A DNA stretch of 64,000 bases from Amycolatopsis sp. EV170708-02-1 (GTDB lineage: Bacteria; Actinomycetota; Actinomycetes; Mycobacteriales; Pseudonocardiaceae), in assembly GCF_022479115.1 (NCBI RefSeq), contig NZ_CP092497.1, positions 5,580,001-5,644,000 of the forward strand, in the 5' to 3' direction. A model generated the notes under the pieces. It searched no databases. It was given only the letters and a program-made list of their open reading frames with translations, and had not been told where the DNA came from. Position numbers and translations under genes: made by a program. Shown here in pieces: positions 1 to 64,000 of this stretch; the first letter of the stretch is position 1, and the number at the start of each line of letters is the position of its first letter.

Positions 1-903
1 CTGCCCTTTTCCCACCAGTACGGCCTGTCGATGGTGCTGATCGCGTGGCTGGTGCGCTGTTCGCTCGTGGTGGCGCCGTACCGGCGGATCGACCGTGCCC
101 TGCGGATGGCGGGACAATGCGGCGTGACCGTGACCGACGGCACGCCTTCCACGTATCAGAGCATCCTCAACATCGTGAAGCGCAATCCCCGCTACGGCCT
201 CGATCTGGCGGGGGTGCGCATGTTCTGCAGCGGCGCCGCTCCGCTGGGCTCGACGCTCAGCGAAGACTACGTCGCCTGGTTCGGCCTTCCGTTGCTGGAC
301 AGCTACGGCAGCACGGAACTGGGCAACCTCGCGTTCGCGACGCCCGAGAACCCGGTCGGCTGCGGCCGCGCGCTCCCCGGGCACGAACTGCGGATCCTCG
401 ACGACGAAGGCAACGCGCTCCCCGCAGGGCAGACCGGCGAGATCGTGATGCACTGCCCCGACATGATGGCGGGTTACCTCGCCGCGGACGGCTCCCTGGA
501 GCCGGCGGAGCAGGGCTGGCGGCACACCGGCGATTTCGGTTACCTGGACGAGAACGACAACCTGTTCGTGGTGGGTCGCAAGTTCGCCGTTCACCGCAAG
601 GGACACACGCTCTATCCGGAGATCATCGAGCACAAGGTCACCGAAGCGCTGTGCCCGGTCAAGGTGATCCCGCTGCCGGACGAACGGCGCGGCTGTCAGC
701 TGGCGTTCTTCGTCGAAGACCCCCTCGGCCACGACGGCAGGCACTGGCGTACCCGCATCGCCGAGGTCCTGCCGGAGTTCGAGCGGCCGGACCGCATCCG
801 GGTCGTCGACCGTTTTCCGCTGAACCGCAACGGAAAACCCGACAAGAAGCGGATGACGGAACTCGCGCTGAACGAGCCGGCCACTTCACCGAAGGCCGGC
901 TGA
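1..903 (+). CDS. Adenylate-forming acyl/aminoacyl ligase, C-terminal part (5' end outside window)
   Basis: The frame is open from base 1, so the start lies upstream; 300 residues are visible. It belongs to the ANL (acyl-CoA synthetase/NRPS adenylation) superfamily, which activates a carboxylic acid as acyl-AMP and passes it to CoA or a carrier protein. Visible core motifs, counted from base 1: YGSTE near 102-106, TGD with its Asp at 178, the hinge region GRKFAVHRKG, and NRNGKPDK with the catalytic Lys at 279. The hinge stretch AVHRKGHTLYPE resembles, from memory, ligases that load beta-amino acids in macrolactam clusters (VinN type). The acyltransferase gene starts 5 nt after the stop, so the two are co-transcribed and probably work on one starter acid. 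Alternatives are a 4-guanidinobutyrate-type ligase or the ligase that activates the finished chain. The family is certain; the substrate is not visible. Confidence 0.85.
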   Translation: MPFSHQYGLSMVLIAWLVRCSLVVAPYRRIDRALRMAGQCGVTVTDGTPSTYQSILNIVKRNPRYGLDLAGVRMFCSGAAPLGSTLSEDYVAWFGLPLLDSYGSTELGNLAFATPENPVGCGRALPGHELRILDDEGNALPAGQTGEIVMHCPDMMAGYLAADGSLEPAEQGWRHTGDFGYLDENDNLFVVGRKFAVHRKGHTLYPEIIEHKVTEALCPVKVIPLPDERRGCQLAFFVEDPLGHDGRHWRTRIAEVLPEFERPDRIRVVDRFPLNRNGKPDKKRMTELALNEPATSPKAG

Positions 904-908
904 GCGAC

Positions 909-1832
909 GTGACCGACGAACGCACCGCCCTGGTCTTCCCGGGAATGGCCCCCACGAGAGCCGGGGACGTGAGCCGTTTCCTGATGATCAACCGGAATGC
1001 CCGGGAACGGCTCGCGACGGCCGAGGACGTCCTCGGCCGTCGCCTGCTCGGCCCGGCCCGCGAAGACGGCGATGTGTACGACGAGGCCGCGCAGGTCGTC
1101 TTCATGCTGACGTGTCTTTCCCTCGCGGAGTGGGCCGAAGACGCCCTCGGGGTGAAACCCGAGATCTGCGCCGGTCCCAGCTTCGGCCAGAAGGCGCTGA
1201 CCGCGTACACGGGCGTGCTGTCGTTCGAGGAGACCGTCCGGCTCACCGCGGAGCTCTCGCGGTGCGAAGTGTCCTACTTCGAAAGCGACTATTCCGACGT
1301 CGTGACCCACTGTTTCGTCCGGACTCCGGAAGAGGGTTTCGCCGAGGTCCTTGCCGAACTGAAGGACGAGTTCCACGACGTATCGGGCGTCATCGACAAG
1401 GGCTTCTACCTGCTTTCGGTGCGGGAGAAGGCTTTGGAGCGGGTGAAGGCGCGAGTGCGGGCGATCGGCGGCTACTCGATGCACACCATGCGGCCGCCCG
1501 TGCACTCCACCTTCTTCAGCGGTTTGCGCCGACGCGCCGAGGAGGAAGTGCTCTCCGGTTTCACCCTTCGCGACCCCGAACTGCCGGTGGTCGCGGACCA
1601 GGACGGCGCGCTCCTGGACTCCGCGGCAGGGGTGCGCCGGATGCTGCTCGACACCTTCGACCGGCCGATCGACTGGCCGTCGATGGTCGCGACCTTGCGG
1701 GCGCAGGGGGTGACGTCGTTGTGCTTCTCCGGACCGGACAATCTGTTCCACCGGGTGGACAGCACGGTGGCGAACTTCGCGGTGCGGACGGTGACTCCGG
1801 AAATGGCTTTGAAGCCGCGGAGCCGCGCTTAG
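909..1832 (+). CDS. Discrete VinK-type acyltransferase for starter transfer
   Basis: This 307-residue protein has the FabD/malonyl-transferase fold signature VFPGM at its N-terminus, and GPSFG with nucleophile Ser91 instead of the usual GHSxG. The partner His199 lies in PPVHS. The start is GTG 909, with GAAGG at 891-895 as ribosome binding site and a 5-nt gap from the ligase stop; the frame is also open upstream but is then only a shadow of the ligase. VinK of vicenistatin moves an aminoacyl starter between two carrier proteins. With a constant shift of 15, the VinK Ser106, His214, Arg153 and Met206 that I remember match Ser91, His199, Arg138 and Met191 here, and Arg299 matches Arg282 within two residues. 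That supports carrier-to-carrier transfer rather than malonyl-CoA loading. It likely primes the loading carrier of the PKS gene that begins right of the window. Confidence 0.82.
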   Translation: MTDERTALVFPGMAPTRAGDVSRFLMINRNARERLATAEDVLGRRLLGPAREDGDVYDEAAQVVFMLTCLSLAEWAEDALGVKPEICAGPSFGQKALTAYTGVLSFEETVRLTAELSRCEVSYFESDYSDVVTHCFVRTPEEGFAEVLAELKDEFHDVSGVIDKGFYLLSVREKALERVKARVRAIGGYSMHTMRPPVHSTFFSGLRRRAEEEVLSGFTLRDPELPVVADQDGALLDSAAGVRRMLLDTFDRPIDWPSMVATLRAQGVTSLCFSGPDNLFHRVDSTVANFAVRTVTPEMALKPRSRA

Positions 1833-2153: not shown

Positions 2154-2186
2154 AGCCCACGCACCCCACGAACCCGACACAAGCGC

Positions 2187-2249: not shown

Positions 2250-5200
2250 CTACGACAGCCGCCCCAGCCACTCCCGGACGGCGTCGGCGGTCGTCGCCGC
2301 ATGCTTCTCCAGCATGGTGAAGTGATCCCCCTCGACGTCGACCGTGTCATGCGGCAACGCCCAGCCGGACCGCCATCCGGCCCGGTCGCGCCAAGCTTCC
2401 AGCGGCTCCGAGGCCCGCACCAGCAAGGTCGGCACAGCGGTCGGCGCGGGCACGTAGTCGGCGAAAAGGCGCAGGTAGGCCCCCATCGCGGTGAGCCGCG
2501 CGTCGTCACCGAGGCCGGTTTCGGCGCCGGTGAGCCGGTCGCGGATGCCGTCCAGCGCGTGTTCGTCCTGCGGGTAGACGTCGATCAGCACGAGCGCGCG
2601 GGGCGCGGGGCCCGCTTCCTCCAGATGCCTCGCCAGCGCGTGGGCGAGCGGGCCGCCCGAGGAGTGGGCCACCAGCACCACCGGGTCACCGGCTTCGCGG
2701 AGGATCGCGTCCGCCTGCGCGTGGAGGACCGCCTCGATCGAGTCCGGCAGCGGCTGCCCGTGCCCGAATCCGGGCACCGGGACGACGGAGACGTCCTGCA
2801 CGTCCCGGAACGACGCGGCGAAGCGCGCGTACTCGTGCGCGCCCGAGCCTGCCAGCAGGGAAGGGACGCAGACCAGTTCGGGACCAGACGGCCCTTTCGC
2901 GAGCCGGACCGGTTGCAGGTTCTGGTCCGGCGCGGTGTCGACGGTGAACGACGGCCGGTAGCGCGACGCCTGCGCGGCCAGCGCGACGAACTGCGCGACC
3001 TCGTCGAGTTCGACAGCGCGGGCGAACATCGCGCCGAACACGCCCGTGGCCGCGGGTGGCGCCTCGGGCTGCCGGTCGGAGGCCGAGAAGTCACCGGAGA
3101 TCCGGTCCGCGACGGCGAGCGGCGTCGGGTGGTCGAAGACCAGCGACGGCGGGAGCCGCAGGCCGGTCGAGGACGCCAGCCGGTTGCGCAGGTCGACGGC
3201 GGTGAGCGAGTCGAAGCCGAGTTCGAGGAAGGCGGCCCCGGCATCGATGGCGCCGGCACCGTCGTGGCCGAGGACGGCCGCGACCTGACCGCGCACCAGC
3301 TCCAGGATCTCCGCGTCGCGGGCGTCCGTGTCCAGTCCGGCGAGCCGTGCGCGGAACGCGCCGCCGCCGTCGGGCGCGCGCCGGGCACGGGCGCGGACGA
3401 GCCCGCGCAGCAACGGCGGGATCTCCTCGGCGTGGAGCGCGGTGAGGTCGAGCCGCATCGGGACGGTCAGCGTCCGCCCGGTGGCGAGCGCGGCGTCGAA
3501 CAGGTCCAGACCCTCCTCTGTGGACAGTCCGGTGAGCCCGGCCCTCGCCATCCGGTCGACGTCGGCGGAATCGGTCATGGCGCTGGTGGTCGCCCACAGG
3601 CCCCACGCCAGCGACGTCGCGGCGGCGCCGTCCGCCCGGCGGCGTTCCACCAGCGCGTCCACGAACGCGTTGGCCGCGGCGTACCCGGACTGCCCCGGAT
3701 TGCCGAAGACCCCGGCCGCCGAGGAGAACATCACGAAGGGCGCGGCGCCGGGCAGGAGTTCGTGCAGGTTCACCGCGGCGTCCACCTTCGGCGCGAGCAC
3801 CCGGTCGAGCCGCTCGGGGGTCTGCGCGGTGATCAGCCCGTCGTCGAGGACGCCGGCGGCGTGCACCACACCGGTCACCGGATGCGCGGCCAGCACCTGG
3901 CTCAGCGCCTCGCGGTCGGCCGCGTCGCACGCCAGGATCCGGACCTCGGCGCCCAGCCCGGCGAGTTCGTCCGCCAGCTCCGCCGCGCCGGGCGCGGACG
4001 CGCCGGAACGGCTCAGCAGCACCAGCGAACGGACGCCGTGCGTCACCACGAGATGCTTCGCGACGGCCGCGCCGAGAAGGCCGGTGCCGCCGGTGATCAG
4101 CACGACGTCGCCGTCGCTCCACGGCCGCGCGGGGCCGGGCTCGGGGACCCGGACGAGCCTCGGGACGAAGCTGACCCCGTCGCGAACCACGACCTGGGCT
4201 TCCCCGGCGGGCAGCGCCGCGGGGACGGCTCCGTCCACGAGCACGAACCGGCCGGGGTGCTCGGACTGCGCCGAGCGCACGAGGCCCCACACCGCGGCCG
4301 CCACCGGATCCGGGCGTTCGGTGGCGATCCCGCCTCGGGTGGCCACCACGAGCGGCCCGTCCCCGGGTTCGTCGAGCCATGTCCGGACGCGTTCGAGCGC
4401 CGCACCCAGCACGGTGCGGAGATCCCCGGACTCGCAGTGCCACACCGCCGCGTCGTGCGGCTCGGTCGCGCCCGCGGGCACCCAGTCCAGGCCGAACAAG
4501 GACTCGCGATACCCGCCGAGGCCGGACACCGACACCGGCCGCAGCAGCAGGCCGTCCACGTCGGCGACCGGCAGGCCTTCGGCGTCGGCCACGGTCAGCG
4601 CGACGCCGTCCGCCGACGGCCGCAGCCGCACCCGCAGGGCCGTCGCACCCCGCGACCACAGCCGGACCCCGGAGAACGCGAACGGGAGCCGAAGCCCCTC
4701 CTCGTCCTCGGGAAGCACCCCCAGCGCGATCCCGTGGAGCGCGCCGTCCAGCAACGCGGGATGCAGGCCGAAGGCCGGGGCGTCGCCGGTCTGGGCTTCG
4801 GGCAGGTCGATTTCGGCGAAGACCTCGTTCTCGCGGCGCCAGGCGGAGCGAAGTCCTTGGAACGCCGGGCCGTATTCGAGGCCCGCGTTCGCGAGTTCGT
4901 CGTACAGCGTCTCGACGCCGACGCGTTCCGCCCCGGACGGCGGCCACTCCGCGAGCGGGGTCGGCACGCCGTCCGTTTCGGGCAGCAGTACGCCGTGGGC
5001 ATGCCGGGTCCAGGGTTCGTCGCCGCGGCGGGAGTACACGCCGACCTCGCGGCGGCCGTCGATGTCCGCGTCGCCGAGTTCGACCGAGAGCCGGACGTCA
5101 GTGCCTTCTTCGAGCACGAGCGGGGCTTCGAGGGTCAGTTCGTCGAGTACCGCGCAGTCCACCAGGGTGCCGGCGGCCAGCACGAGTTCCACGAAAGCGG

Positions 5201-8030
5201 TGCCGGGCACCAGCACCGTCCCGGACACGGCGTGATCGGCGAGCCAGGGATGGGTTTCCAGCGAGATCCGGCCGGTGTACAGCAGGCCACCGGCCCCGGG
5301 GACCGCGACGACGGCGCCGAGCAGCGGATGGTCCACCACCGTCTGCCCGAACGCCGACGCGTCCCCGGCGACGGCGCCCGCTTCGAGCCAGAACCGCTTG
5401 CGCTGGAACGGATACGTCGGCAGATCGACCCATTCCGCCGCCGGGAGGATCGACGACCACTCCGGGCTCAGGCCGTGCACGTGGGCTTCGGCGAGCGACA
5501 GAACGAACCGCTCCGCGCCACCCTCGCCCCGACGCAAACTCCCCAACGCCACAACGTCTTCACTGATACCAGGCACCAGCACCGGATGCGGACTCGCCTC
5601 CACGAAAAACCGGAAACCATCCTCCCGCAACCGATCCACCGTCTTCGAGAACTGAACCGTCCCCCGCAGATTCCGGAACCAATACCCAGCATCCAACTCC
5701 AGAGGCTCATCGGTCACCGTCGAATAAAACGGAATCACCGGCTCCCGCGGCGAAATACCCGCCAACGCCGACACCACATCTTGCTCGATCGCATCCACAT
5801 GCGCCGAATGCGACGCGTAATCCACCGGAATCCGCTTCGCCCGCACATCCAGCAGCTCACACCGCTTGACCAACGCATCCAACCCAGCGACATCACCCGA
5901 CACCACCACCGACGCGGCACCGTTCACCGCCGCCACCGACACACCCTCCGGCAACAACTCCCGCACCCGGTCCTCAGCAGCGGCCACCGACACCATGCCA
6001 CCGAGACCCGACAACGCCAGAATCGCCTTACTCCGCAAACACACAACCCGCGCCGCATCCTGAAGCGACAACGCACCAGCCACACACGCCGCAGCGATCT
6101 CACCCTGCGAATGACCCACCACCGCAGCAGGCTCCACCCCACACGCCCGCCACAACCGCGCCAACGACACCATCACCGCGAACAACACCGGCTGCACCAC
6201 ATCAACCCGCTCCAACGCAACCGCGTCGGACAACACCTCGGACAACCGCCAGTCCACAAAGGACGAAAGCGCCGATTCACACTCGGCCATCGACTCCGCG
6301 AACACCGGAGCAGCCGACAACAGCTCCTCCGCCATCCCCACCCACTGCGAACCCTGACCCGGGAACACGAAAACGGCCTTGCCCTGCTGCGCGACGCCTT
6401 CGACCAGGAGGCTCGACGGCTCTCCGGCGGCGAGCGCGTCCAGCGCGGGGCGCGGATCACCGACGATGGCCGCCCGGTGCCCGAACAGTGGTCGCGCGGC
6501 GAGCGTGGCGGCCGCACCCGGGAGATCCACAACGGACCGAAGCTGGGCCGCCCTGGTACGCAAGGCTTCCGGTGTCCGGGCCGACAGCAGCCACGGCGTC
6601 GCACCGGTCACCACCGGCGGCCGGGGTTCGGCCTCCTCGGCGGCCGGGGCGGCTTCGAGGACGACGTGCGCGTTCGTGCCGCTGATACCGAACGACGACA
6701 CCGCGGCCCGGCGAGGACGGTCGAGTTCGGGCCACGGCCGCGCCTCGGCCAGCAGGGAGACCGCGCCCGCGCTCCAGTCCACATGCGACGACGGGGTCTC
6801 CGCGTGGAGGCTGCGCGGCAGAGTCCCGCTTCGCAATGCCTGCACCATTTTGATGATCCCGGCGACCCCGGCCGCGGCCTGCGTGTGGCCGAGGTTCGAC
6901 TTGATCGACCCGAGCCACAACGGCCGATCGGCCGGCCTGCCCTTGCCGTAGGTCGCGAGCAACGCCTGCGCCTCGATCGGGTCGCCCAGGGTGGTGCCGG
7001 TGCCGTGCGCCTCGACGACGTCGACGTCCGCCGTCGTCAGCCGGGCGTCGGCGAGCGCCTCGCGGATCACCCGCTGCTGGGACGGGCCGTTCGGGGCGGT
7101 CAGGCCGTTCGACGCGCCGTCCTGGTTCACCGCCGATCCGCGCAGGACCGCGAGAACCGGATGGCCGTTGCGCCGCGCGTCGGAAAGCCGTTCCACCAGC
7201 AGCATCCCGGCGCCCTCGGCCCAGCCCGTGCCGTCCGCCTCCTCGGCGAAGGGTTTGCAGCGGCCGTCCGGGGCCATTCCGCGCTGACGGCTGAACTCGA
7301 CGAACGTTCCGGGGGTGAACATCACCGTCACCCCGCCGGACAGCGCGAGGTCGCATTCGCCCCGGCGCAGCGCCTGGGCGGCGAGGTGCAGGGTCACCAG
7401 CGAAGACGAGCACGCGGTGTCCACGGTGAGCGCCGGGCCTTCGAACCCGAAGGTGTAGGACACCCGGCCGGAGGCGATGCTGCCGGAGTTCCCGGTGCCG
7501 AGGTAGCCGCCGACCTCGTCGGGGATCTCGGTCAGCCCGGAGACGTAGTCGTGGTACATCAGCCCGGCGAACACCCCGGTCCGGCTGCCCTTCAGCGAGC
7601 CGGGATCGATCCCCGCCCGCTCGATGGCCTCCCACGACGTCTCCAGCAGGAGCCGCTGCTGCGGATCCATCGCCAGCGCCTCGCGCGGCGAGATCCCGAA
7701 GAACGCCGGGTCGAACTCGGCGACGTCGTGCAGGAAACCGCCCTGCGAAACGTAACTCGTGCCCTGCTTGTCCGGGTCCGGGTCGTACAGCGCTTCGAGG
7801 TCCCAGCCACGGTCGACCGGGAATCCGCTGATCCCGTCGCCGCCGGTTTCGACCATCCGCCACAGGTCCTCCGGCGAGGTGACCCCGCCGGGATAGCGGC
7901 AGGCCATCCCGACGATGGCGATCGGTTCGCTGCCCGCGGCTTCGGTCTCCTTCAGGCGTTTGCGGGTTTCGTGGAGATCCGCGGTGACCTGCTTGAGGAA
8001 GTACCGGAGTTTGTCCTCGGTGTCTTTCAT
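2250..8030 (-). CDS. Type I PKS gene F: terminal module KS-AT(mm)-DH-KR-ACP-TE
   Basis: This 1926-residue protein performs the last extension and releases the chain. Order of domains: N-terminal docking helix 1-33; KS 35-460 with Cys207 in TACSSS; AT with Ser641 (GHSQG) and YASH ending at His741, the methylmalonyl signature; DH with intact HxxxGxxxxP at His933; KR about 1308-1490 with an LDD motif (B-type); ACP Ser1608; TE about 1685-1926 with Ser1790, Asp1817 and His1903. DH plus B-type KR predicts an E 2-methyl-2-enoyl end. The TE nucleophile motif is AHSSG instead of GHSxG. Start ATG 8030 follows GGGGGCGGAA and lies 13 nt after the stop of gene E, so the two are one operon. The AT core is nearly identical in DNA to that of gene C. 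Hydrolysis or macrolactam formation cannot be told from sequence alone. Confidence 0.95.
5521..6380 (-). repeat. 860-bp AT-domain repeat, copy in gene F
   Basis: This tract aligns without gaps to 36321-37180 (constant shift 30800). The core 5680-6239 has one difference in about 560 bp. Codons in the tract often end in T or use TTG, AGT and GAT, unlike the C-ending codons on both sides. It covers the methylmalonyl AT from near VFPGQGSQW to past YASH. Confidence 0.85.
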
Positions 8031-8043: not shown

Positions 8044-11000
8044 TCAGGAGATCCCGAGTTCCTTGCCGATGAATTCGAACATTTCGTCGTCCGAGGCGTC
8101 TTCGAGCCGATCCGCCACGGATTCGGTGCCCTCGCCCGGATCGCAGGCCGCGAGCAGGGCACGCAGCCGGTCCTTGACCTTGCCGCGGATCGCGTCGTCC
8201 GGGCTTCCCCCGGCGAACGCCGCCTCCAGCCGGTCGAGTTCCGCCAGCACCCCCAGCGGCGGTGGCGCGTCGTCCACGACGATCTCCGCGCCGACCAGTT
8301 CCGCCACCGCGGTGGTGGTCGGATGGTCGAAGACCAGCGTCGCGGGCAGCCGCAGGCCGGTGGCCTCGTTGACCCGGTTGCGCAGTTCGACCGCGGCGAG
8401 CGAGTCGAACCCGAGTTCCGTGAACGCCTTGGCCGGATCGACCTGTTCGGGGCCGGCGTGCCCGAGGACCGCGGCGACATGCGTGGCGACGAGGTTCAGC
8501 AGTGCCGCGGCGCGTTCCTCCCCGGTCATCCCGGCCAGCTCGGCCTTGAGCGCGTCCCCGGTCGGCGAACCGGCGGTCTCGGCGCGTTTGCCGGTACCGC
8601 GGATCAGGCCGCGCAGCAGGGGCGGGACGTCGGCGCCGAGGCCGGCCCGCAGGGTGGCGAGGTCCAGCCGCATCGGCAACAGGACCGGTTCGGCCGCCGT
8701 CACCGCGAGGTCGAACAGCGCCAGTCCCTCCTCTGTGGACAGTGCGCCCGCGCCGGAGGCCGTCATCCGGTCCAGGTCGCGTCCGGACATGCCGCCCGCC
8801 ATCCCGTCACCGGCCCAGAGGCCCCAGGCGAGCGACGTCGCGGGCAGCCCCTGCGCACGGCGATGCCGGGCGAGCGCGTCGAGGAACGCGTTGGCCGCCG
8901 CGTAGTTCGCCTGTCCCGGATTGCCGAAGGTGCCCGCCGCGGAGGAGAACAGCACGAACTCGTCGACGTCGCCCGCCAGTTCGTGCAGGTTCACCGCGGC
9001 GTCGACCTTCGGCCGCAGGACGGCGTCGAGCCGTTCCGGGGTGAGGCCGTCGAGGACGACGTCGTCGAGCACACCGGCGGCGTGGACGACGCCGGTCACC
9101 GGGTGCTCGGCCAGAAGTCGTTGCAGCGCTTCACGATCGGCCGCGTCGCAAGCGACCACCGCGACCTCGGCGCCCAGATCGCGCAGTTCGCCGGCCAGCT
9201 CGCCCGCGCCCGGCGCGTCCGGGCCGCGGCGGCCGGCGAGCACCAGCCGCGTCTTCCCGTGCGCGGTGACCAGATGCCGGGCCAGTGCCGCGCCGAGCGC
9301 GCCGGTGCCGCCGGTGATCAGCACGGCCCCGTCCGTCGGCGCCTTGTCTTCCGCGGCCGTCACGGCCGGTTTGATCAGCCGCGGCGCCTTCACCGTGCCC
9401 TCGCGCAACTCCAGCTGCGGTTCGCCGGAGGCGAGGGCGGGCAGCAGCACGCGATACGACGCGTCCTGTTCGTCGAGGTCGACCAGTACGAACCGGCCGG
9501 GGTGCTCGGATTGCGCCGAGCGGACCAGGCCCCAGATCACCGCCTGCGCCGGTTCGTCGACGGCACCACCGGTGACCAGCACCAGCCGGGAACCGGCGAA
9601 CCGGTCCTCGGCCAGCCACGCACGGACCAGGTCCAGCGTTCGGTGGGCGGCGGTGTGCGCGGCGGCGGCCAGGCCTTGGCTGTGGTCCGGCGCGCAAGAC
9701 ACGAAGACCAGCTCTGGCACCCGATCGGTCACGTCGGCCAGATTCGCGTGAGCCTGCCCGCGATAGCCGGCGGCGGTGAGCGCGGCGTCGAGTTTGTAGT
9801 CGTCCACACCGACGACGGCCCAGCTCGCGGCCACCGGGGCGGTGGGATCGAGCGGGACCGGCGCCCAGGCCAGGCCGAACAGCGACTCGTGGCTGCCCTG
9901 CCGCCCGCCGATCTGCTCCAGCGAGACCGGACGCAGCGTCAGGGCGTCCACTGTGGCCACCAGCCTGCCGGTCTCGTCGGCGGCGACCAGCGAGACCGCG
10001 TTCTCCCCCGCCGGGGACAGCCGGACCCGCAGGGCGCGCGCACCGGAGGCGTGAAGCCGGACGCCGGACCAGGCGAACGGCAGGCGCACACGGCCGGCCG
10101 CCACGTCGGCCTCCTGCTCGCCTCCTCCGGCGAAGCCCAGGGCATGCAAGGCGGCGTCGAGCAACGCCGGATGCAGGCCGAAGCCCTCGGTCGTGGTGTC
10201 CTCGGGTAGGTCGACCTCGGCCCAGATGTCGTCCCCGCGCCGCTGGGCGGAGCGGAGTCCCTGGAAGACCGGGCCGTACTCGAGACCGGCGGCGGCCAAG
10301 CCGTCGTAGAGGCCGTCGGTTTCGACGGTCTCGGCGTCGGCGGCCGCCCATGCCGACAGATCGAACGGCGCGCTCGCCGCCAGAGGTGACACGGTGCCGG
10401 TGGCGTGGCGGATCCAGTCGCCCTCCTCGGGGCGGGAGTAGACGTCCAACGCGCGCCTGCCGGACTCGTCCGGTGCGGCGGCGACGATCCGCAGCGCCGT
10501 ACCGCCGTGGTCCGGCAGCACCAGCGGCGCTTCCAGGGTCAGTTCGTCGATGGCCGCGCAACCGGTCAGCTCACCGGCTCGCAGCGCGAGTTCGACGAAC
10601 GCCGTACCCGGCAGGAGGGTCGTCCCGGCGACGACGTGGTCGGCCAGCCACGGCTGCTCCTGCACCGACAGCCTGCCGGTAAACAGCACCGCATCGCTGT
10701 CCGGCGCCTCGACCGCCGCACCGAGCAGCGGATGCCCGGCGGGCGACTGCCCCAGTCCGGTGACGTCGCCGACCGCGGGCGCGGCGGGCCGCAGCCAGAA
10801 CCGCTCGTGCTGGAAGGCATAGGTGGGCAGATCGATCTTCCGGCCGGGGAGCGCCTTCGCCCAGTCGACCCGGGCACCGTCGACGTGCAGCCGCGCGAGC
10901 GCGACGACGAACGACTCGACATCCGACCGGCCGGCGCGCAGCGACGGCACGAACAGCGGGGCGTCCACAGTGGACTCGTCCGTGACGCAGTGCTCGCCGA

Positions 11001-44800: not shown

Positions 44801-45135
44801 CAGGGTCGCCGGGTCGATCCCGGCGCGTTCGAACGCCTCCCACGACGTCTCCAGCAGGAGCCGCTGCTGCGGATCCATCGCCAGCGCCTCACGCGGCGAG
44901 ATCCCGAAGAAACCCGCGTCGAACTCCCCCGCGGATTCGAGGAAGGCGCCTTGGCGGGTGTAGGAGGTGCCCCGGCGGTCCGGGTCGGTGTCGAACAACC
45001 GCTCCAGGTCCCAGCCGCGGTCGGCGGGGAACTCGCCCAGCGCGTCCCGGCCCTCCGCCAGCAATGCCCAGAGCCGTTCGGGGTATCGGCGTGACCGGGG
45101 AACCGGCAGCTCATCGCGACGATCGCGATCGGTTC
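38858..45135 (-). other. PKS module B3: KS-AT(methylmalonyl)-DH-ER-KR(B)-ACP plus docking tail
   Basis: KS from 3619 (Cys3791), AT Ser4229 (GHSQG, YASH), DH His4528 ([10 protein letters not shown]), ER about 4960-5267 with [13 protein letters not shown] and Val5078 in TAYVGL, KR about 5273-5463 with LDD, ACP Ser5589, tail ending [14 protein letters not shown]. Adds a fully reduced CH2-CH(CH3). Confidence 0.9.
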
Positions 45136-54100: not shown

Positions 54101-55988
54101 CGATCTCCCCCACCGAATGCCCGGCCAAGAAGTCCGGCCGGATGCCCCAGCTCTCCACCAACCGGAACAACGCCACCTCGAAAGCGAACAACGCACACTG
54201 CGTATTCGCCGTCTGATTCAGCTCCTCGGCCGTCAGCTCCTTGATCGGCCGCTCGAACCGTGACGAGACATCATCGAAGACCTCGGCGAACACCGGGAAA
54301 CGCTCGGCCAGCTCACGACCCATCCCGAGCCGCTGACTGCCCTGACCTGTGAACAGGAACGCCGTCCCGCCGTCCGTCGCCCGCCCTTCCACCAAAGTGG
54401 CGGTGTGCAGGTCGTCCAGTGTGCCGACGACGGCGGCCCGATAGTCCAGCGCGGCCCGCGTGGTGGCTAGCGAGAACGCGAGATCCGCCGCGGTGACGTC
54501 CGAGTGCCGCGCGAGTTCCCGCACGCGCGCCACCTGCTCGCGCAGCGCGGCCTCGGTCTTGCCGGACAGCACGAACGGAACCGGGCCCGCGAGGGTGGAG
54601 GGCGGTTCTTCTTCGGCGGCGGGCTGTTCGAGGACGACGTGCGCGTTCGTCCCGCTGATCCCGAACGAGGACACCGCGGCCCGCCGGGGGCGATCCGCCT
54701 TCGGCCACGGCTCGGCCTCGGTCAGCAGCGAGACCGCGCCCTCGGACCAGTCCACATGGGACGTCGGCGTGTCGACGTTCAGCGTCTTCGGCAGCACGCC
54801 GTGCCGCATCGCCTCGACTAGCTTGATGATCGACGCGACCCCGGCCGCGGCCTGGCTGTGCCCGATATTGGACTTCACCGAGCCGAGCCAGAGCGGGGTG
54901 GTCCGGTCCTGGCCGTAGGTGGCCAGCAGCGCCTGCGCCTCGATCGGGTCGCCGAGCCGGGTTCCCGTGCCGTGCGCCTCCATGGCGTCCACATCGGACG
55001 GTGCGAGCCGCGCGTTCGCCAGCGCCTGCCGGATGACCCGCTGCTGCGAAAGACCGTTGGGGGCGGTGAGCCCGTTCGAGGCGCCGTCCTGGTTCACCGC
55101 GGATCCGCGCACGACGGCGAGGACGCGATGCCCGTTGCGCTTGGCGTCCGAAAGCCGCTCGACGAGCAGCATGCCCGCGCCTTCACCCCAAGCGGTGCCG
55201 TCGGCGGCTTCGGCGAACGCCTTGATCCGGCCGTCCGGCGCGAGCCCACGCTGACGGCTGAAGTCCACGAAGGCCGCCGGGTTGGCCATCACGGTCACCC
55301 CGCCCGCCAGCGCCAGCGAGCATTCGCCCTGCCGCAGCGCCTGCGCCGCCAGATGCAGCGCCACCAGCGAAGACGAACACGCCGTGTCGACGGTGACCGC
55401 AGGGCCTTCGAGCCCGAAGGTGTAGGAAACCCTGCCGGAGGCGATGCTCGCGAAACTCCCGTTGCCAAGGTACGGCTCGAGATCCGCGGGCGGCGTGCCC
55501 GCGATGGCCGAGTACTCGTTGTGGATGACCCCCGCGAACACGCCGGTCCGGCTGCCCCGCAGGGAATCCGGGGCGATCCCCGCGCGTTCGATCGCCTCCC
55601 AGGAGATCTCCAGCAGCAACCGCTGCTGCGGATCCATCGCCAGCGCCTCACGCGGCGAGATGCCGAAGAACGCCGGGTCGAACCTGGCGGCGTCGTGCAG
55701 GAAACCGCCTTCCCTGACGTAGCTCTTGCCCGGTTTGCCCTGCTCGGGGTCGTAGAGCCCGTCGAGGTCCCAGCCGCGGTCGGCCGGGAATCCGGTGAGG
55801 CCGGTGCGTTCCCCGGCGACCAGGTCCCACAGCTCCTCCGGCGAGCGGACCCCGCCCGGGTAACGGCAGGCCATGCCGATGATCGCGATGGGCTCGCCGG
55901 TCAGGCGCCGGTTCTCCCCGCGCAGGCGGTCGGCTTCCTTCAGCGCCGCCCTCAGGGCCTCGACGACCTTGTTCTCGGATGTGGACAT
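38858..55988 (-). CDS. Type I PKS gene B: three modules (B1-B3), two apparent frameshifts
   Basis: Reading starts at ATG 55988 (GGAG five bases upstream, 22 nt after the gene A stop) and ends at TGA 38858. The frame breaks near 52944 (in DH of B1) and near 45079 (at the start of KS of B3); adding one base at each site gives an uninterrupted 5710-residue protein (17131 + 2 bases = 5711 codons). PKS homology continues across both breaks without loss of residues, so sequencing or assembly errors in G runs are the likeliest cause. Modules: B1 DH-KR, B2 DH-ER-KR, B3 DH-ER-KR. The N-terminal docking helix ([25 protein letters not shown]) is of another class than those of C to F. If the breaks were real, the synthase would be dead after B1. 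Confidence 0.9.
45079..45083 (-). other. Apparent 1-base deletion at the start of KS in module B3
   Basis: The minus strand reads GATACCCCGAACGGCTCTGG. One more G gives [21 protein letters not shown], matching the KS N-terminus of all other modules; without it, the frame is lost for the rest of the gene. Confidence 0.85.
45136..51042 (-). other. PKS module B2: KS-AT(malonyl)-DH-ER-KR(B)-ACP
   Basis: KS from 1650 (Cys1822), AT Ser2248 (GHSVG, HAFH), DH His2540 ([10 protein letters not shown]), ER about 2936-3233 with [13 protein letters not shown] and Tyr3053 in TAYYGL, KR about 3247-3433 with LDD, ACP Ser3561 in EIGFDSL. A complete reductive loop: adds CH2-CH2. Confidence 0.9.
51043..55988 (-). 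other. PKS module B1: KS-AT(malonyl)-DH-KR(B)-ACP
   Basis: KS 32-460 (Cys204), AT Ser625 (GHSVG, HAFH), DH His916 with intact [10 protein letters not shown] and [12 protein letters not shown] after the frameshift, KR about 1286-1456 with LDD, ACP Ser1592 (numbers for the frame-corrected protein). The KS entry reads [11 protein letters not shown] where the others have VAGVIKM. Confidence 0.88.
52941..52944 (-). other. Apparent 1-base deletion in DH of module B1
   Basis: The minus strand reads CCTTCGGGGCGGAACCG. With one more G the protein continues [15 protein letters not shown], as in sister modules ([15 protein letters not shown] in E1); without it, the frame leaves PKS homology at once. 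Confidence 0.85.
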
Positions 55989-56010: not shown

Positions 56011-59000
56011 TCAGGCGGGGTCGGAAGCGTCGAAAGCGAGTTCGATCAGGCGGTCGGCGTCCATCTCGTCGATGTCCGCGCCGTCGAGCGACTCGGTGGG
56101 GCGGTAGCCGGGGTCGGCCAGCCGGGTCAGCAGGTCCAGCACGCCGGCTTCACGGAGCCGGTCGGCGGGCACCGAGGCGAGGACCGCGCCGATGCGGGCG
56201 ACCTCGTCGTCAACGGCGTCCTCGGCGGGTGCCAGCCGGTCGCCGAGGGTTTCGGCGAGCGCGGTGGGCGTCGGATGGTCGAACACGACGGTGGCGGGCA
56301 GCCGCAGGCCGGTCGCCGCGTTGAGCCGGTTGCGGAGTTCGACCGCGCTGAGCGAGTCGAACCCCAGCTCCCGGAACGCCTGCCGGACACCGACCTGCTC
56401 CGGGGAACCGAAGCCGAGCACCGCCGCGACGTTCGCGCGGATCAGGTCCAGCAGGGCCCTGCCGCGGGCTGCGGGGGCGAGCCCGGCCAGCCGGTCGGCG
56501 AATCCGGCGGTCTGTGCTCCGATGGCCGCGGCCGCCCGGCGGACCGGTGCCTTCACCAGCCCCCGCAGCAGCGGATGCACTTCCCCGCCTCGCAGGGCGG
56601 CGAGGTCGATGTGCATCGGCAGCGGCGCCGGTTCGTACCCGGCGCGGGCGGCGTCCAGCAACAGCAAACCGTCCTCAGTGGACAGCGGGCTCATCCCGGA
56701 TCGCTTGAGCCGGGCGAGATCCGCCTCGCCGAGGTGCCCGGTCATCCCGCTCAGCTGGGCCCAGAAGCCCCACGCGAGCGAGACCGCGGGCAGCCCCTCC
56801 GCACGACGGTGCCGGGCGAGGGCGTCGAGGAAGCTGTTGGCGGCGGCGTAGTTGCCTTGTCCGGCGTCGCCGAACGCACCGGCGGCCGAGGAGAACAGGA
56901 CGAACTCTGCGAGCTCCGCGTCGCGGGTCAGCTCGTGCAGGTTGACCGCGGCGTCGACCTTCGGCCGCAGCACCTTCGCCAGCCGCTCGGGGGTCAGCGT
57001 GGCGACGAGGCCGTCGTCCAGGACTCCGGCGGCGTGCACCACCCCGGTCAGCGGATGTTCGGGCGGGACGGTGGCGAGCAACGCGGCCAGCGCCGTCCGG
57101 TCCGCCGCGTCGCAGGCGGCGATGGTGACCGACGCCCCGGCGGCGGCCAGTTCCGCTTCGAGTTCCGCCATCCCGGCCGCGGCGCGGCCCCGGCGGCCGA
57201 CGAGCAACAGGTGCCGGACACCACGCTCGGCGACCAGATGCCGGGCGACCAGTGCGCCGAGTGTCCCGGTGGCACCGGTGATCAGCACCGTCCCGTTCTC
57301 GTCCATTGCGGACGGAATGGTGAGCACGTTCTTGCCGATGTGCTTGGCCTGGCTCATGAACCGGAAGACCTCGGGCGCGCGGCGCGCGTCCCACACCGTC
57401 GGCCGGGGCACGGTGAGCGACCCGGCGCCGAACAGCTCCAGCAGCTCGGCCAGGATCTCGCCGATCCTCGGCCGTCCGGCGTCGAGCAGGTCGAACGCGC
57501 GATAGGTGACGCCGGGATGCGCGGCCGCGACCTCGTCCGCGTCACGGATGTCGGTCTTGCCCATCTCCACGAACCGGCCGCCCTCGCCCAGCAGCCGCAG
57601 CGACGCGTCGACGAACTCCTTGGCGAGCGAGTCCAGGACGACGTCCATCCGGCCGAACCGGTCCTCGAAGTCCAGCGTGCGGGAGGAGGCGATGTGCTCG
57701 TCGTCGAAACCGAGGCCCCGCAGCACCTCCCACTTGCCGGGGCTCGCCGTGGCGAACACCTCGACGCCGAGGTGGCGGGCCAGCTGGACCGCGGCCATGC
57801 CGACGCCGCCGGTCGCGCCGTGGATCAGCACCTTCTCCCCCGGCCGTAGCCCGCCGAGGTCGACCAGCCCGTAGTAGGCGGTGAGGAAGACGACCGGCAG
57901 CGCCGCCGCTTCGGTGAACGTCCAGTCCGTGGGCATTCGCGTCACCGTCCGCCGGTCGGCGATCGCGACCGGGCCGAACGCGCCGTCGAACAGGCCGAAG
58001 ACCCGATCGCCCGGTTTCAGCCCGGTGACACCGGCGCCGATTTCAGTGACCACGCCCGCGCCCTCGCTGCCCATCACCGCGTTGTCCTCGGGATACATGT
58101 CGAGCGTGATGAGCACGTCGCGGAAGTTGATCCCGGCGGCCCGGACCTGGATCCGGACCTCACCGTCGGCGAGCGGCCGGGCGGCCGCGGGTGCCGGGAC
58201 GAGCGCGAGCTCTTCCAGCGTGCCACGACGGGGCGCATCGAGCACCCACGGGCCGTCGGGCGGGGTCAGCGTGCCGTCGGCGGAGACCTTGGCGAGCCTC
58301 GGCACGAGCAGTTCCCCGTCGCGCCACGCGAGCTGGGCCTCACCGGTGGCCAGTACCTCGGCGGGCAACGCCGGGGGAAGGTCCCCGTCGCTGTCGAGGA
58401 GGACGATCCGGTCGGGGTTCTCGGCCTGCGCGGACCGCACCAGGCCCCAGGCCGCCGCGGCCGACAGGTCGCTGACGTCCGCGACCGCGCCGCGGGTGTG
58501 CAGCACCAGCCGCGCGTCGGCGAACCGCTCGTCGTCGAGCCAGGTCCGGATCAGGTCCAGCACCCGGGCGGTCGTGCGATGCGTGCTTTCGGTGAGGTCG
58601 CCCGCCTCGGCTCCCACCGGCACCAGCACCACATCGGGAATCTCGGTGAGCGCGGTGAGGTCGCCGTCCGGCAGGACCGTGACGGTCGGCGTCCCGACGG
58701 CTTCCGGTGCGACCACCGGAGTCCAGCCGACGCGGAAAAGCGAGTCCGGACGCCGAGAGCCCGGCAGCGCGGCAGGCCGCGTGACCAGGCCTTCGACGGT
58801 CGCGACCGGCGCACCCGACGGGTCGGCCGCCGTCACGGCGACGGTGTCCGCCCCCACGGTGAGCCGGACCCGCAGCGCGGTGGCGCCGACGGCGTGCACG
58901 GTGACCCCGGTCCACGCGAACGGCAGTTCCGCGCCGTCGCCGGACCGGACGGTGCCGAGGGCGTGGAGGGCGGCGTCGAGCAACGCCGGATGCAGGCCGA

Positions 59001-62000
59001 ACCGGTCCGCTCCCTCGGCGCCGGGCAGGGCGACCTCGGCGAAGACGTCGGAGCCCGAGGTCCAGGCCGCCCGCAGCCCCTGGAACGCCGGGCCGTAACC
59101 GTAGCCCTGCGTCTCGGCTTCGGCGTAGAAGCCGTCGAGGTCGACGCTCGTCGCGCCGGCGGGCGGCCATTCGGTCAGCCCCTCTCCCGGGGTCTCCTCC
59201 GAAGTCAGGAAGCCGGACGCGTGCCGCACCCAGATGTCGTCACCGGATTCGGCCTGGGAGTGCACGGTGACCTCGCGGCGTCCGTCCACTTCGGACCCCA
59301 CGGCGACCTGGACGCGGACGCCACCCTGCTCGGGAAGCGGCAGCGGGGCTTCGAGGGTCAGTTCGTCGATCCGTCCGCAGCCCGCGTGGGTCCCGGCCTG
59401 CAGCGCGAGCTCCACGAACGCGGTGCCCGGCAGCAGGACGGTGCCCTGCACCGCGTGATCGGTCAGCCACGGCTGGGCGGCCGTCGAGATCCGGCCGGTG
59501 AGCAGGAGCCCGCCGGAACCCGGCAGCGCGGTCGCGGCGGTGAGCAGCGGATGCCCGGTGGCGCCGAGACCGAATCCGGCGGCGTCGCCCGGTTCCCCGG
59601 CGTCGGTGAGCCAGAACTCCTGATGCTGGAAGGCATAGGGCGGCAGATCCACCCAGCCCGCCTCGGGCAGCAGCGCGGCCCAGTCGGGGCTGAGGCCGTG
59701 GGCGTGCGCCTCGGCCAGCGACGTGACGAACCGGGTCGGCCCGCCTTCGTCGCGGCGAAGGCTCGCGAGCGCGACGGCGGGCACGGCGGCCTCTTCGACG
59801 AGTTCGGTCAGCCCGGCGACCAGCACCGGATGCGGGCTCGTCTCGACGAAGAACCGGAACCCGTCTTCGATGAGCCGCCGCACCGCCAGGTCGAACCGGA
59901 CGGTGGCCCGGAGATTGCGGAACCAGTAGGCCGCGTCGAGGGTGGTCGTGTCGATCGGTTCCCCGGTGACGGTCGAGTACATCGGCACGCCAGCTTCGCG
60001 CGGCGCGATTCCCGCCAGGGCCGTCACGACGTCCTCTTCGATCGAGTCGACGTGAGCCGAATGGGACGCGTAGTCCACCGGGACACGCTTCGCCCGCACA
60101 TCGAGCAGCTCGCACCGCTTGAGCAGCGCGTCCAGCCCGGCGACGTCACCGGACACGACGACGGAGGCGGGGCCGTTCACCGCGGCCACGGACACGCCGT
60201 CGGGCAGCAGCTCCCGGACCCGGTCCTCGGAGGCCGCGACCGACACCATCCCGCCCAGCCCGGACAGCGCCAGGATCGCCTTGCTGCGCAGGCAGACCAC
60301 CCGCGCGGCATCTTCCAGCGACAGCGCGCCCGCGACACACGCGGCCGCGATCTCGCCCTGCGAGTGCCCGGCCACGGCGGCGGGTTCGATCCCGCACGCC
60401 CGCCAGAGCCGGGCCAGCGACACCATCACCGCGAACAGCACCGGCTGGACGACGTCCACCCGCTCCAGCGCCGCCGCGTCGGACAGGACGTGCGTCAGCT
60501 TCCAGTCCACATGGGACAGCAGCGCGGTCTCGCAGTCGGCCATCGCCTCGGCGAAAACGGCCGACGAACCCAGCAGATCCACCGCCATCCCGGTCCACTG
60601 CGAACCCTGGCCGGGGAAGACGAAGACGGGCTTGCCGTTCTCGGCGACCCCGCCGACGACGTGGGGCGCGGGGACGCCGTCGGCCAGCGCGCGCAGCCCG
60701 GCGGTCAATCCGGCGCGGTCGCCCGCCACCACCACGGCACGATGGTCCAGCGCGGACCTGGTCACCGCGAGCGCGCGGGCCACCGCGGGCAGCGAGACGT
60801 CGTCACGGAGGTGCCCGGCGAGCCGGTCCGCCTGCGCGGCCAAGGCGGCGGACGTCTTTCCGGACAAGACGAACGGCAGCACGTCACCACCGAGCGGTGA
60901 TGTGTCCGAAATGGACTGTTCGACCGGCTCCGCCTGTTCCAGGACGACATGCGCGTTGGTCCCGCTGATCCCGAACGACGAGACCGCCGCGCGCCGGGGC
61001 CCTCCGTGTTCCGGCCAGGAAACGGGCTCGCTGAGCAGGGACACGTTCCCGGCCGTCCAGTCGACCTTGGTCGTCGGCGTGCCGAGGTTGAGCGTGCGCG
61101 GCAGCACACCGTGGTGCATCGCCTGCACCATCTTGATGATCCCGCCGACCCCCGCGGCGGCCTGGGTGTGGCCGAGGTTCGACTTCAGCGACCCCAGCCA
61201 CAGCGGCCGATCCCGGTCCTGGCCGTAGGTGGCGAGCACGGCTTGTGCCTCGATGGGATCGCCCAGTGGCGTCCCGGTGCCGTGCGCCTCGACGGCGTCC
61301 ACTTCGGACGGTTCGAGGCCGGCGTTCGCCAGCGCCCGGCGGATCACCCGTTGCTGCGACGGACCGCTCGGGGCGGTCAGGCCGTTGGACGCGCCGTCCT
61401 GGTTGACCGCGCTGCCCCGAACGATCGCGAGGACGCGATGGCCGTTGCGGCGGGCGTCGGAGAGGCGTTCCACCAGGAGCATTCCGACGCCTTCGCTCCA
61501 CACCGTGCCGTCGGCGTCGTCCGAAAAGGACTTGCAGCGGCCGTCGGGGGCGAGGCCCCGCTGACGGCTGAAGTCCACGAAGACCTCGGGCGTGGCCATC
61601 ACGGTCACCCCGCCCGCCAGCGCCATCGAGCATTCGCCGCGCCGCAGCGCCTGCGCGGCCAGGTGCAGCGCCACCAGCGACGACGAGCAGGCCGTGTCGA
61701 TCGTGACCGCCGGGCCTTCCAGCCCGAAGGTGTAGGCGACCCGGCCGGAGTGGATGCTGGCCGAGGTCCCGTTGCCGAGGTAACCCTCGACGTCGTCGGG
61801 CACGCGGTTCAGCCCGGTCGCGTAGTCGTGGTACATCACCCCGGCGAACACACCGGTTCCGCTGCCGCGCAAGGACTTCGGGTCGATCCCGGCCCGTTCG
61901 ACGGCTTCGTGGGAGATCTCCAGCAGGAGCCGCTGCTGGGGGTCCATGGCCAGCGCCTCGCGCGGCGAGATGCCGAAGAAGCCCGGATCGAACTGCCCGG

Positions 62001-62205
62001 CGTCGTGCAGGAAACCGCCCTCGCGCACGTAGGTGGTGCCGCGGTGGTCGGCGTCGGGGTGGTAGACGCCGGCGGTGTCCCAGCCGCGGTTCTCGGGGAA
62101 CCGGGTGACGCCGTCGTTCCCGTCGGCGACCAGGCGCCACAGGTCGTCGGGTGTGTTCACCCCGCCCGGATAGCGGCAGGCCATGCCGATGATCGCGATC
62201 GGCTC
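56011..62205 (-). other. PKS module A1: KS-AT(methylmalonyl)-DH-ER-KR(B)-ACP plus docking tail
   Basis: KS from 598 (Cys770), AT Ser1212 (GHSQG, YASH), DH His1514 ([10 protein letters not shown]), ER about 1927-2229 with [13 protein letters not shown] and Tyr2042 in TAYYGL, KR about 2232-2430 with LDD, ACP Ser2548 (numbers from codon 63996). Adds a fully reduced CH2-CH(CH3). Confidence 0.9.
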
Positions 62206-64000
62206 GTCGGTGTCGGCCGGAGCGGCCACCTCGTCGCGGACCGGAGCGGATCCGGCGGCGAGGAACGTGGCGACCGCACGCGGGTTCGGGTGATCGAACA
62301 CCAGCGTCGGCGCGATCTTCAGCCCGGTGGCCGCGATCAGCCGGTTGCGCAGTTCCACGGCGGCGAGCGAGTCGAAGCCGACCTCGGTGAACGCGCGGTC
62401 CGGGTCGATCGCGCGGGCGTCCGGGTGGCCGAGCACGGCGGCGACCGTCGTCCGGACGAGGTCGAGCAGGGCCGCCTCGTCCAGTCCGCCGCGCGGCGCG
62501 GCCGACGGCGCCGGGCGGGTGACCCGGACGAGTCCACTGAGGACGGTGGGAAGTCCGTCGGCGGTGGCGCGGGCACGCAACGCGGCACGGTCCATCCGCA
62601 TCGGCAGGAGCACCGGCCGGTCCGCCGCCAGCGCCGCGTCGAACAGCGCGAGACCGTCCACTTCGGACAGCGCGCGCTGGCCGGTGCGGGCGATCCGGCG
62701 CAGTGCCGCCTCGTCGAGCCGTCCGCCCATCCCGGCGTCCCACAGTCCCCAGCCCAGTGCCACGCCTGGGCGGCCTTCCGCGCGGCGGCGGAGGGCGAGT
62801 GCTTCGAGGAAGGCGTTGGCCGCGGCGTAGTTGGCCTGCCCGGCGCCGTCGAAGGTGGCCGCGGACGACGAGAACAGCACGAAAGCCGACAGGTCGAGGT
62901 CACGGGTGAGCTCGTCCAGGACGAGCGCGCCGGTGACCTTCGGCCGGAGGACGGCCGCCAGCCGCTCGTGGTCGAGCGTGGCGACGGTCGCGTCGTCGAG
63001 CACGCCGGCGGCGTGGACGACCGCCGACACCGGGTGTTCGGCGAGCAGTGCCGCGACGGCCTCGCGGTCGGCGATGTCGCAGGCGGCGACGGTGACGTCC
63101 GCTCCCAGCGCGGTGAGGTCGTCCACGAGCGGGCCCGCGGCGCCGCGACGGCTCACGAGAAGCAGGCTGCGGACCTCGTGCCGCTCGACCAGATGCCGGG
63201 CCAGCAGCCCGGCGAGACCGCCGGTCCCGCCGGTGATCAGCACCGTGCCACCGGTGGTGAACGAAGCCGGGGCCGGGCTCGGGACCCGCGTCAGCCTGGG
63301 GACCAGCACCACGCCGTCGCGGACGGCGAACTCGGGCTCCCCGGAAGCCAGTCCGGCGGCGAGGCCGTCTTCTCCCGTGACGTCGGCCAGCACCAGCCGG
63401 TCCGGATGCTCGGCCTGCGCGGAACGCACGAGCCCCCACGCGGCGGCCGTTGCGGGATCAGGGCTTTCGGTGGCGACGGCGCCCTCGGTCAGCAGTGCCA
63501 GCCGGGCCGGGGCGAACCGGTCGTCGGCGAGCCAGGCCTGGACGAGATCCAGCACGCCTTCAAGGGACTCACCGCAGCGGACGGCGACGACCGGCGGCAC
63601 CTCGCCGTCGACGGCGGTCAGGTCCGGGTAGAGCCGGTATTCAGCGGTACCCGGGCTTCCGGAAAGCGGAACCCAGTCGACGCCGTAGAGCGCGCCGTCC
63701 TGCGCGCGCGGCGCGGTGGCGAGCGGGCGCAGGGCCAGGGATTCCACCGACGCGACGGGCTCGCCCGCGGCGTCGGCCACCTTCAGGGACACCGAGTACG
63801 TCCCGGCTTCGGCGCCCGCGACGTGGTTCTCGAGCTTGACGCGCAGCACGTCGGCACCACTCGCGTGCAGCGTCACACCGGACCACGCGAACGGCAGCGC
63901 CGCGGGACCACCGCCCCCGGCCCCGAGTTCGAGCACGTGCAGGGCCGCGTCCAGCAGCGCCGGATGCACGCCGAACCCGCCCTGGGTCTCCGGCACGGCG
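56011..64000 (-). CDS. Type I PKS gene A, C-terminal part: end of module A0 and complete module A1 (N-terminus outside window)
   Basis: The frame is open through the right edge, so the true start and the AT of module A0 are not visible; 2663 residues can be read. A0 contributes the end of a DH, a KR and an ACP; A1 is a fully reducing methylmalonyl module. The protein ends with a docking region ([19 protein letters not shown]) that should meet the N-terminal helix of gene B, whose start lies 22 nt downstream. As the earliest visible gene product of the line, it probably also carries the starter-loading carrier in its missing part, the likely target of the discrete acyltransferase at 909-1832. 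No frame breaks are seen. Confidence 0.95.
62206..64000 (-). other. PKS module A0, partial: DH(end)-KR(B)-ACP
   Basis: Residue numbers count from the codon at 63996. [12 protein letters not shown] of the DH at about 10-21, KR about 249-430 with [10 protein letters not shown] and [10 protein letters not shown] Ser543. KS and AT lie beyond the edge, so the extender unit is unknown. DH-KR predicts a double bond. Confidence 0.85.

Follow-up and report, generated by a model that had tools for sequence, protein, structure and literature searches.

The region analysed here is a 64,000-nucleotide stretch of the chromosome of the soil bacterium Amycolatopsis sp. EV170708-02-1 (the window; positions 5580001-5644000 of a 9.66-Mb single-contig genome). 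It carries a linear type I polyketide synthase (PKS) locus, which an original prediction made from the letters had assigned to the linear polyene ECO-0501, with a beta-amino-acid macrolactam as the alternative. The window was extended by 60 kb on each side, and genes were called over the window and its flanks by a simple codon-position script. Flank coordinates are given as L011 (left of the window) and L012 (right of the window), and PKS A crosses from the window into L012. Domain seeds were taken from Pfam matches in PKS F, PKS C and two segments of PKS B, domains were mapped by phmmer, and active-site motifs were aligned. Further Pfam scans were run on the section of PKS A that lies in the flank, on the second of the three PKS B segments and on the first two PKS E modules; PKS D was read by phmmer and motifs alone.

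The assembly line comprises 12 extension modules, with seven malonyl and five methylmalonyl acyltransferases (ATs) and one module that carries a ketoreductase (KR) only. All PKS genes are on the minus strand, and the assembly line therefore begins to the right of the window. The modules named in the original prediction were all found, and the twelve described there as visible comprise 11 modules complete in the window and a part of A0, which is cut at position 64000. Only the end of the dehydratase (DH), the KR and the acyl carrier protein (ACP) of A0 lie inside, and the loading ACP and the ketosynthase (KS) and AT of A0 lie in the flank (L012:1-3458). The DTACSSS motif was found in 12/12 KS domains. 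The motifs that mark extender specificity are well established for the AT family. Methylmalonyl-type motifs (GHSQG and YASH) occurred in A1, B3, C, D1 and F, in full agreement with the five predicted modules, and malonyl-type motifs (GHS[IV]G and HAFH) in the seven others; these include the flank-encoded AT of A0, which agrees with the malonyl extender previously assumed for that module. Module D1 is the only one with a KR as its whole reductive set, giving the single free hydroxyl expected. The DH-KR sets of D2, E1, E2, E3 and F give the predicted pentaene, those of A0, B1 and C give three isolated double bonds, and DH-enoylreductase (ER)-KR sets are present in A1, B2 and B3. The isolated double bonds had been made conditional on dehydration by A0 and C, which is a fair caveat for C because its 10-residue DH motif lacks the usual glycine. 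The motif of E2 lacks it as well; both modules retain the His, the Pro and the region of the catalytic Asp, and both variants also occur in G205, a related genome described below.

When a 4-guanidinobutyrate starter, an N-methyl group, a glucuronide and an aminohydroxycyclopentenone (C5N) amide were added, the module read-out was computed as C46H68N4O10; the result was C41H63N3O9 without C5N and C45H66N4O10 without the methyl group. The papers cited here and below were available as excerpts, and statements drawn from them refer to those excerpts. The three formulas equal those tabulated in PMC10221244 for ECO-0501 (C46H68N4O10), the free acid AK_1 and N-demethyl ECO-0501, where identification by mass spectrometry is tentative. 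PMC8227522 gives [M+H]+ of ECO-0501 as C46H69N4O10, and the formula quoted in the original prediction was correct by both sources. The computed match is lost if any single DH is switched off or if A0 is made methylmalonyl. The free acid AK_1 would fit release by the thioesterase (TE) before amide formation.

The flanks contain genes suited to the tailoring of such a product (Table 1). The 5-aminolevulinate synthase (ALAS) and ligase-family genes for the C5N amide are present, with the amide synthetase role as a candidate assignment, and so are a UDP-glucose dehydrogenase and a UDPGT-family glycosyltransferase, for which the use of glucuronate is putative. The flavoenzyme of the L-amino acid oxidase/monooxygenase kind (hereafter the monooxygenase) would act on arginine by analogy with published ORF7. 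Inspection of the flanks thus recovered the monooxygenase, the ALAS, the ligase or amide-synthetase candidates and the glycosyltransferase that had been anticipated, and no amidohydrolase within the cluster. Published roles are monooxygenase (ORF7), dehydrogenase (ORF13), glycosyltransferase (ORF14), amide synthetase (ORF15), ALAS (ORF16), ligase (ORF17), PKS (ORF18-23), acyltransferase (ORF24) and ligase (ORF25) (PMC8037709), together with a type II thioesterase (ORF27) and, from a reference title, a regulator (ORF4) (PMC10020181). The gene order here fits these roles as far as they are listed (4, 7, 13-25 and 27); the excerpts attach no ORF number to the guanidinoacetate-methyltransferase homologue.

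The closest relatives were sought with the glycosyltransferase in 297 genomes of the bacterial family, and G205 and G124 (98%) were followed by G109 (74%). A scan of named genomes gave three loci, the best in A. keratiniphila subsp. keratiniphila DSM 44409 (98%), and G124 is taken as this strain. Alignment of the PKS region with G205 gave one block of 31.3 kb and one of 34.1 kb, at 93% nucleotide identity, and the DSM 44409 contig, which ends within PKS C, is collinear over 30.6 kb at 93%. At the protein level the cluster shares 94-100% identity with G205 and G124, save for the type II thioesterase neighbouring the starter ligase (91% to G205); the starter ligase itself reaches 98% to G205. 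The modules are the same in G205 one by one, and the motifs read are also equal. In A. keratiniphila HCCB10007, deletions of cds13-17, cds22-23 and cds4-27 (7.7, 21.2 and 87.5 kb) abolished ECO-0501 (PMC10020181), and the corresponding spans here, 7.0, 21.1 and 87.3 kb, are near the published sizes. Five plasmid records matched positions 1-1500 of the window, each over at most 32% of this segment.

Gene content, domain order, AT motifs, the exact formula and synteny with A. keratiniphila are the observations on which we base the following reading. The window is, with a probability of roughly 0.96, the core of the ECO-0501 biosynthetic locus in an Amycolatopsis close to A. keratiniphila, and ECO-0501 is the predicted product, as the original prediction had proposed. 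ECO-0501 is an already described antibacterial; since formula, modules and flanking genes agree, the product of the pathway is known and not new. An exact polyketide formula was readable from raw sequence and could then be checked.

Table 1 Features of the locus in the window and its flanks (mal, malonyl; mmal, methylmalonyl)
Feature	Position	Strand	Basis
Type II thioesterase, left of starter ligase	L011		Pfam
DUF5988 protein, 69 residues, between type II thioesterase and starter ligase	L011:19247-19456		Pfam
Starter ligase: acyl-CoA-ligase family, 476 aa, ORF25 position, proposed 4-guanidinobutyrate ligase	L011:19473 to window 903	+	PF00501
VinK-type free-standing acyltransferase, ORF24 position, proposed starter loading	909..1832	+	PF21124 VinK_C; 5czc E 2.2e-91
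PKS F: KS-AT(mmal)-DH-KR-ACP-TE, last module; TE ~2271-2879	2250..8030	-	Pfam, phmmer, motifs
PKS E: E1, E2, E3, each KS-AT(mal)-DH-KR-ACP	8044..23346	-	phmmer, motifs; first two modules also Pfam
PKS D: D1 KS-AT(mmal)-KR-ACP (KR without LDD); D2 KS-AT(mal)-DH-KR-ACP	23373..33155	-	phmmer, motifs
PKS C: KS-AT(mmal)-DH-KR-ACP	33647..38854	-	Pfam, phmmer, motifs
PKS B, third segment: B3 KS-AT(mmal)-DH-ER-KR-ACP, ~25 first KS positions missing in frame	38858..45064	-	Pfam, phmmer, motifs
PKS B, second segment: B1 DH end, KR, ACP; B2 KS-AT(mal)-DH-ER-KR-ACP	44767..52956	-	phmmer, motifs, Pfam
PKS B, first segment: docking, B1 KS, AT(mal), DH start	52377..55988	-	Pfam: PKS_DH_N present, PS-DH part absent
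PKS A in window: A0 DH end, KR, ACP; A1 KS-AT(mmal)-DH-ER-KR-ACP	56011..64000, on to L012:3458	-	phmmer, motifs; flank Pfam
Acyl-CoA ligase, beside PKS A	L012:3802-5097		Pfam family
ALAS	L012:5460-6668		TIGR01821 E 1.8e-164, above cut-off
AMP-ligase	L012:6665-8230		Pfam family
UDPGT-family glycosyltransferase	L012:8235-9467		Pfam
UDP-glucose dehydrogenase	L012:9494-10834		TIGR03026 above cut-off
Thioesterase-domain protein	L012:11814-12350		
Histidine kinase	L012:12769-13908		
Response regulator	L012:14032-14706		
Flavoenzyme of the L-amino acid oxidase/monooxygenase kind	L012:15487-17148		3we0 E 2.5e-207
Guanidinoacetate-methyltransferase homologue	L012:18131-18946		1xcj E 1.3e-25; no Pfam match
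LuxR-type regulator	from L012:19197		Sequence and position

Several points weigh against this assignment. ECO-0501 is the predicted product of this strain, read from its genes, and the comparison was made with A. keratiniphila DSM 44409, G205 and later papers rather than with the deposited ATCC 43491 cluster. The size of cds23 is given as 12.7 kb in PMC10020181 and does not fit PKS F, which measures 5.8 kb here. No amidohydrolase (CN-hydrolase) was seen in the cluster. In addition, this assembly breaks PKS B into three frames and shortens the ligase next to PKS A, and the locus as sequenced would therefore not make the compound. PKS B is one gene in G205 (5716 residues) and G124 (5710), and relative to both it is interrupted here by single-base losses near window positions 45084 and 52942. 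A further single-base loss removes the first 78 residues of the ligase (431 vs 511 aa). True decay of the locus in this strain would explain these three losses in cluster genes relative to both relatives, but the rest of the cluster coding sequence is well conserved and the losses follow a wider pattern. In 199,802 aligned columns from 304 kb around the locus (alignment blocks of at least 1500 columns and at least 86% identity), single-base indels inside G205-called genes amounted to 11 deletions vs 0 insertions; the deletions lie beside C or G runs and also affect genes outside the cluster. The bias is weaker outside genes (20 deletions vs 10 insertions). One further single-base insertion falls inside a gene called only in the present genome, and two larger frame-changing gaps inside genes of both genomes were counted separately. 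One of the 11 deletions (region 159792) leaves the frame of the present genome open and speaks rather against the sequence of G205. Because of the 11:0 bias inside genes and the involvement of genes outside the cluster, the frameshifts in PKS B and the ligase are most likely assembly errors, and real decay is judged unlikely.

A close analogue of ECO-0501, for example with other stereochemistry or another sugar, is a still smaller prospect. Stereochemistry and the glycosyl donor can be read from sequence only with uncertainty, and nucleotide identity is about 93% rather than 100%. Against this, the modules and the AT, DH and KR motifs equal those of G205 save one non-motif residue in the B3 DH, and the ALAS, glycosyltransferase, dehydrogenase, monooxygenase and methyltransferase are 97-100% identical, with 94-95% for the ligase beside PKS A. 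The least credible explanation is a vicenistatin-like beta-amino-acid macrolactam, whose priming would fall to the VinN/VinK-like pair at the left end of the window. The acyltransferase is a genuine VinK relative by its VinK_C domain and its match to 5czc (E 2.2e-91), and it stands beside an adenylate-forming enzyme, but in a guanidino-starter setting. The starter ligase scored 1.4e-36 with 4-coumarate ligase and 2.1e-30 with 3wvn, which we take to be VinN. Its homologues were searched in the 297 family genomes (E <= 1e-90, five candidates scored per genome; 70 places in 56/297), as were those of the monooxygenase (E <= 1e-150, four candidates scored per genome; 74 places in 62/297). With at least 52% identity, a cut set after the list was seen and applied to related genomes that are not independent, 30/35 ligase places shared a contig with a monooxygenase no more than 150 kb away (for 17 of the 30, no more than 15 kb away), and the remaining five were in draft genomes with a monooxygenase on another contig. 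Below 52%, the count was 0/35, with a rough chance of ~0.04 per place. Because its close homologues co-locate with the arginine monooxygenase, the ligase ending at window position 903 is assigned to guanidino-starter chemistry, which this distribution supports. An ACP profile was run against every open frame of 45 or more residues in 184 kb, and no small free-standing VinL-like ACP emerged. Outside the PKS genes, the profile matched two nonribosomal peptide synthetase (NRPS)-like genes and the ACP-like C-terminus (E 1.5e-5) of a 584-aa protein encoded ~31 kb left of the window (L010:7076-8830). Pfam scans of 24 non-PKS window and flank proteins showed no beta-amino acid genes and gave no hint of VinM, VinO or VinJ, at which no sequence search was aimed. 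C5N, UDP-glucuronate and monooxygenase genes lie in the flanks, and further AMP-ligases are present beside the ALAS. The macrolactam was rejected, with VinM, VinO and VinJ outside the sequence searches, on the missing VinL-like ACP, the tie of the ligase to the arginine monooxygenase and the C5N and UDP-glucuronate flanks. The VinN/VinK-like pair, which had been taken to point to it, is thereby removed as a lead and may mislead annotation. Among titles inspected, none relevant linked VinK with guanidino starters. In a Streptomyces producer of ECO-0501, the authors of PMC8227522 were unable to locate the corresponding cluster and drew attention to one with some similarity to macrolactam clusters such as that of vicenistatin.

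For the ECO-0501 pathway at this locus, we infer the substrates, the tailoring order, the C5N step of each ligase, where the hydrolase comes from and which gene encodes the methyltransferase. L-arginine would be oxidised to 4-guanidinobutyramide by the monooxygenase and the amide hydrolysed, perhaps by an enzyme encoded ~583 kb left of the window. The starter ligase would activate the resulting 4-guanidinobutyrate, and the VinK-type acyltransferase would pass it to the PKS A loading ACP. After extension by the 12 modules of PKS A to F (seven malonyl, five methylmalonyl), the PKS F TE would release the free acid. 5-Aminolevulinate from the cluster ALAS would then be activated, cyclised to aminohydroxycyclopentenone and joined as an amide, the D1 hydroxyl would be glycosylated with UDP-glucuronate made via the cluster dehydrogenase, and the guanidine would be N-methylated, most likely by the guanidinoacetate-methyltransferase homologue. 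With regard to the hydrolysis, the best match in this genome to the CN-hydrolase of G034, a member of another genus, is 56% identical and lies at 4995838-4996530, beside a second monooxygenase (4994135-4995775; 63% to that of the cluster). This distant CN-hydrolase may supply the missing starter step. The azalomycin pathway is likewise described as split, with its monooxygenase outside the cluster (PMC5082578).

The product of L012:18131-18946 is the best candidate for the guanidine N-methylase of ECO-0501. It is homologous to guanidinoacetate N-methyltransferase, and WE and DTYP are kept in 17/17 aligned rows; the Glu of WE and the Asp of DTYP are presumably the guanidine-binding residues. 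The protein ranks with the best conserved of the cluster: it is 99% identical to its G205 counterpart and 100% to that of G124, where no other cluster protein reaches 100% and several reach 99%. Homologues occur in 8/297 family genomes (E <= 1e-30), and six of the eight copies lie within guanidino-starter clusters; no starter genes were found around the other two (G040 and G246; 36.7 and 40 kb inspected). In a class-wide sample, 26/394 genomes, the present one included, carry a homologue, and 24 of these belong to one other family; three inspected copies of that family and the G492 copy had no starter genes around them. A tree of 17 of the copies found groups all six cluster copies on one branch (100/98), and the G246 and G492 copies, which adjoin large adenylation-like genes, fall outside it, as do the rest. 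Azalomycin was methylated in a heterologous host by host enzymes described as yet unidentified (PMC5082578, 2016), and a cluster gene therefore need not be required; the candidate bears on this very step. No paper was found that links guanidinoacetate methyltransferase with polyketide gene clusters, and among the best 12 of 502 papers on guanidino compounds and N-methyltransferases no title or abstract opening named an enzyme of this type; the one paper that turned up on guanidine methylation and ECO-0501 dealt with primycin.

Starter genes also lie together in G034 (G034:C1:560001-700000), in the order acyltransferase, ligase, CN-hydrolase, methyltransferase, three other genes, monooxygenase and PKS. 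Parts of G068:C7 and G096:C468 keep this order; the G096 hydrolase shares 87% identity with that of G034, and in G068 a 225-aa gene occupies the hydrolase slot. Homologues of the ALAS, UDP-glucose dehydrogenase and glycosyltransferase (E <= 1e-15) were absent from the 140 kb of G034, and after its PKS follow 3-hydroxyacyl-CoA dehydrogenase, ACP, acyl-CoA dehydrogenase and HAD-like genes, presumably resembling a methoxymalonyl-ACP set. It seems reasonably probable, with appreciable room for doubt, that the methyltransferase was recruited from the creatine-pathway family and that, with the monooxygenase, CN-hydrolase, ligase and VinK-type acyltransferase, it forms a movable N-methyl-4-guanidinobutyryl starter cassette, which in another genus also serves to prime a PKS that appears to be different. 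If so, presence of the methyltransferase would predict N-methylated guanidino polyketides, and the starter genes, mostly without it, would point to a large group of guanidino-starter clusters across this bacterial family.

A second ECO-0501-type cluster was observed in G109, again of another genus (G109:C1:2680001-2700000 and 2740001-2780000). Identities are 75% for the ALAS, 72% for the ligase, 70% for the UDP-glucose dehydrogenase, 69% for the monooxygenase, 65% for the starter ligase, 44% for the VinK-type acyltransferase and ~48% for three glycosyltransferases, and the cluster has its own CN-hydrolase. The genome contains no methyltransferase homologue at E <= 1e-30. Its product is possibly a new C5N guanidino polyketide. 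Elsewhere in G109 (C1:1280859-1287805), a lone PKS gene with 67% identity to PKS F directly adjoins a glycosyltransferase 73-74% identical to that of the cluster. In the present genome, the two large NRPS-like genes lie ~12 kb past the cluster regulator (L013:13535 to L014:10813); the first gave a weak carrier-protein match, and the second has condensation, adenylation, thioesterase and MFS transporter domains.

Among known systems, vicenistatin shares the free-standing VinK-family acyltransferase adjoining an adenylate-forming enzyme, and differs in that no VinL-like free ACP was found here and the predicted product is a linear amide. Azalomycin and primycin (PMC5082578, PMC7522111) share the arginine monooxygenase or amine oxidase, the 4-guanidinobutyrate ligase and the dedicated loading acyltransferase; they differ in their described amidohydrolase gene, which has no counterpart seen in the present cluster, and in their macrolactone products, for which the excerpts do not mention C5N. 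Conkatamycin (ktm; PMC9448795), likened by description only, is a guanidino-ended polyketide with glucuronic acid, whose cluster has UDP-glucose dehydrogenase and glucuronosyltransferase genes, and it differs in its formula (C39H63N3O9). The ECO-0501 cluster of ATCC 43491 and A. keratiniphila differs by the ~93% nucleotide identity to G205 and DSM 44409 and the three apparent single-base losses here, and it agrees with the present locus in the order of ORF roles, in six PKS genes when PKS B is counted as one, in the predicted formula, and in the starter, C5N and glucuronate genes.

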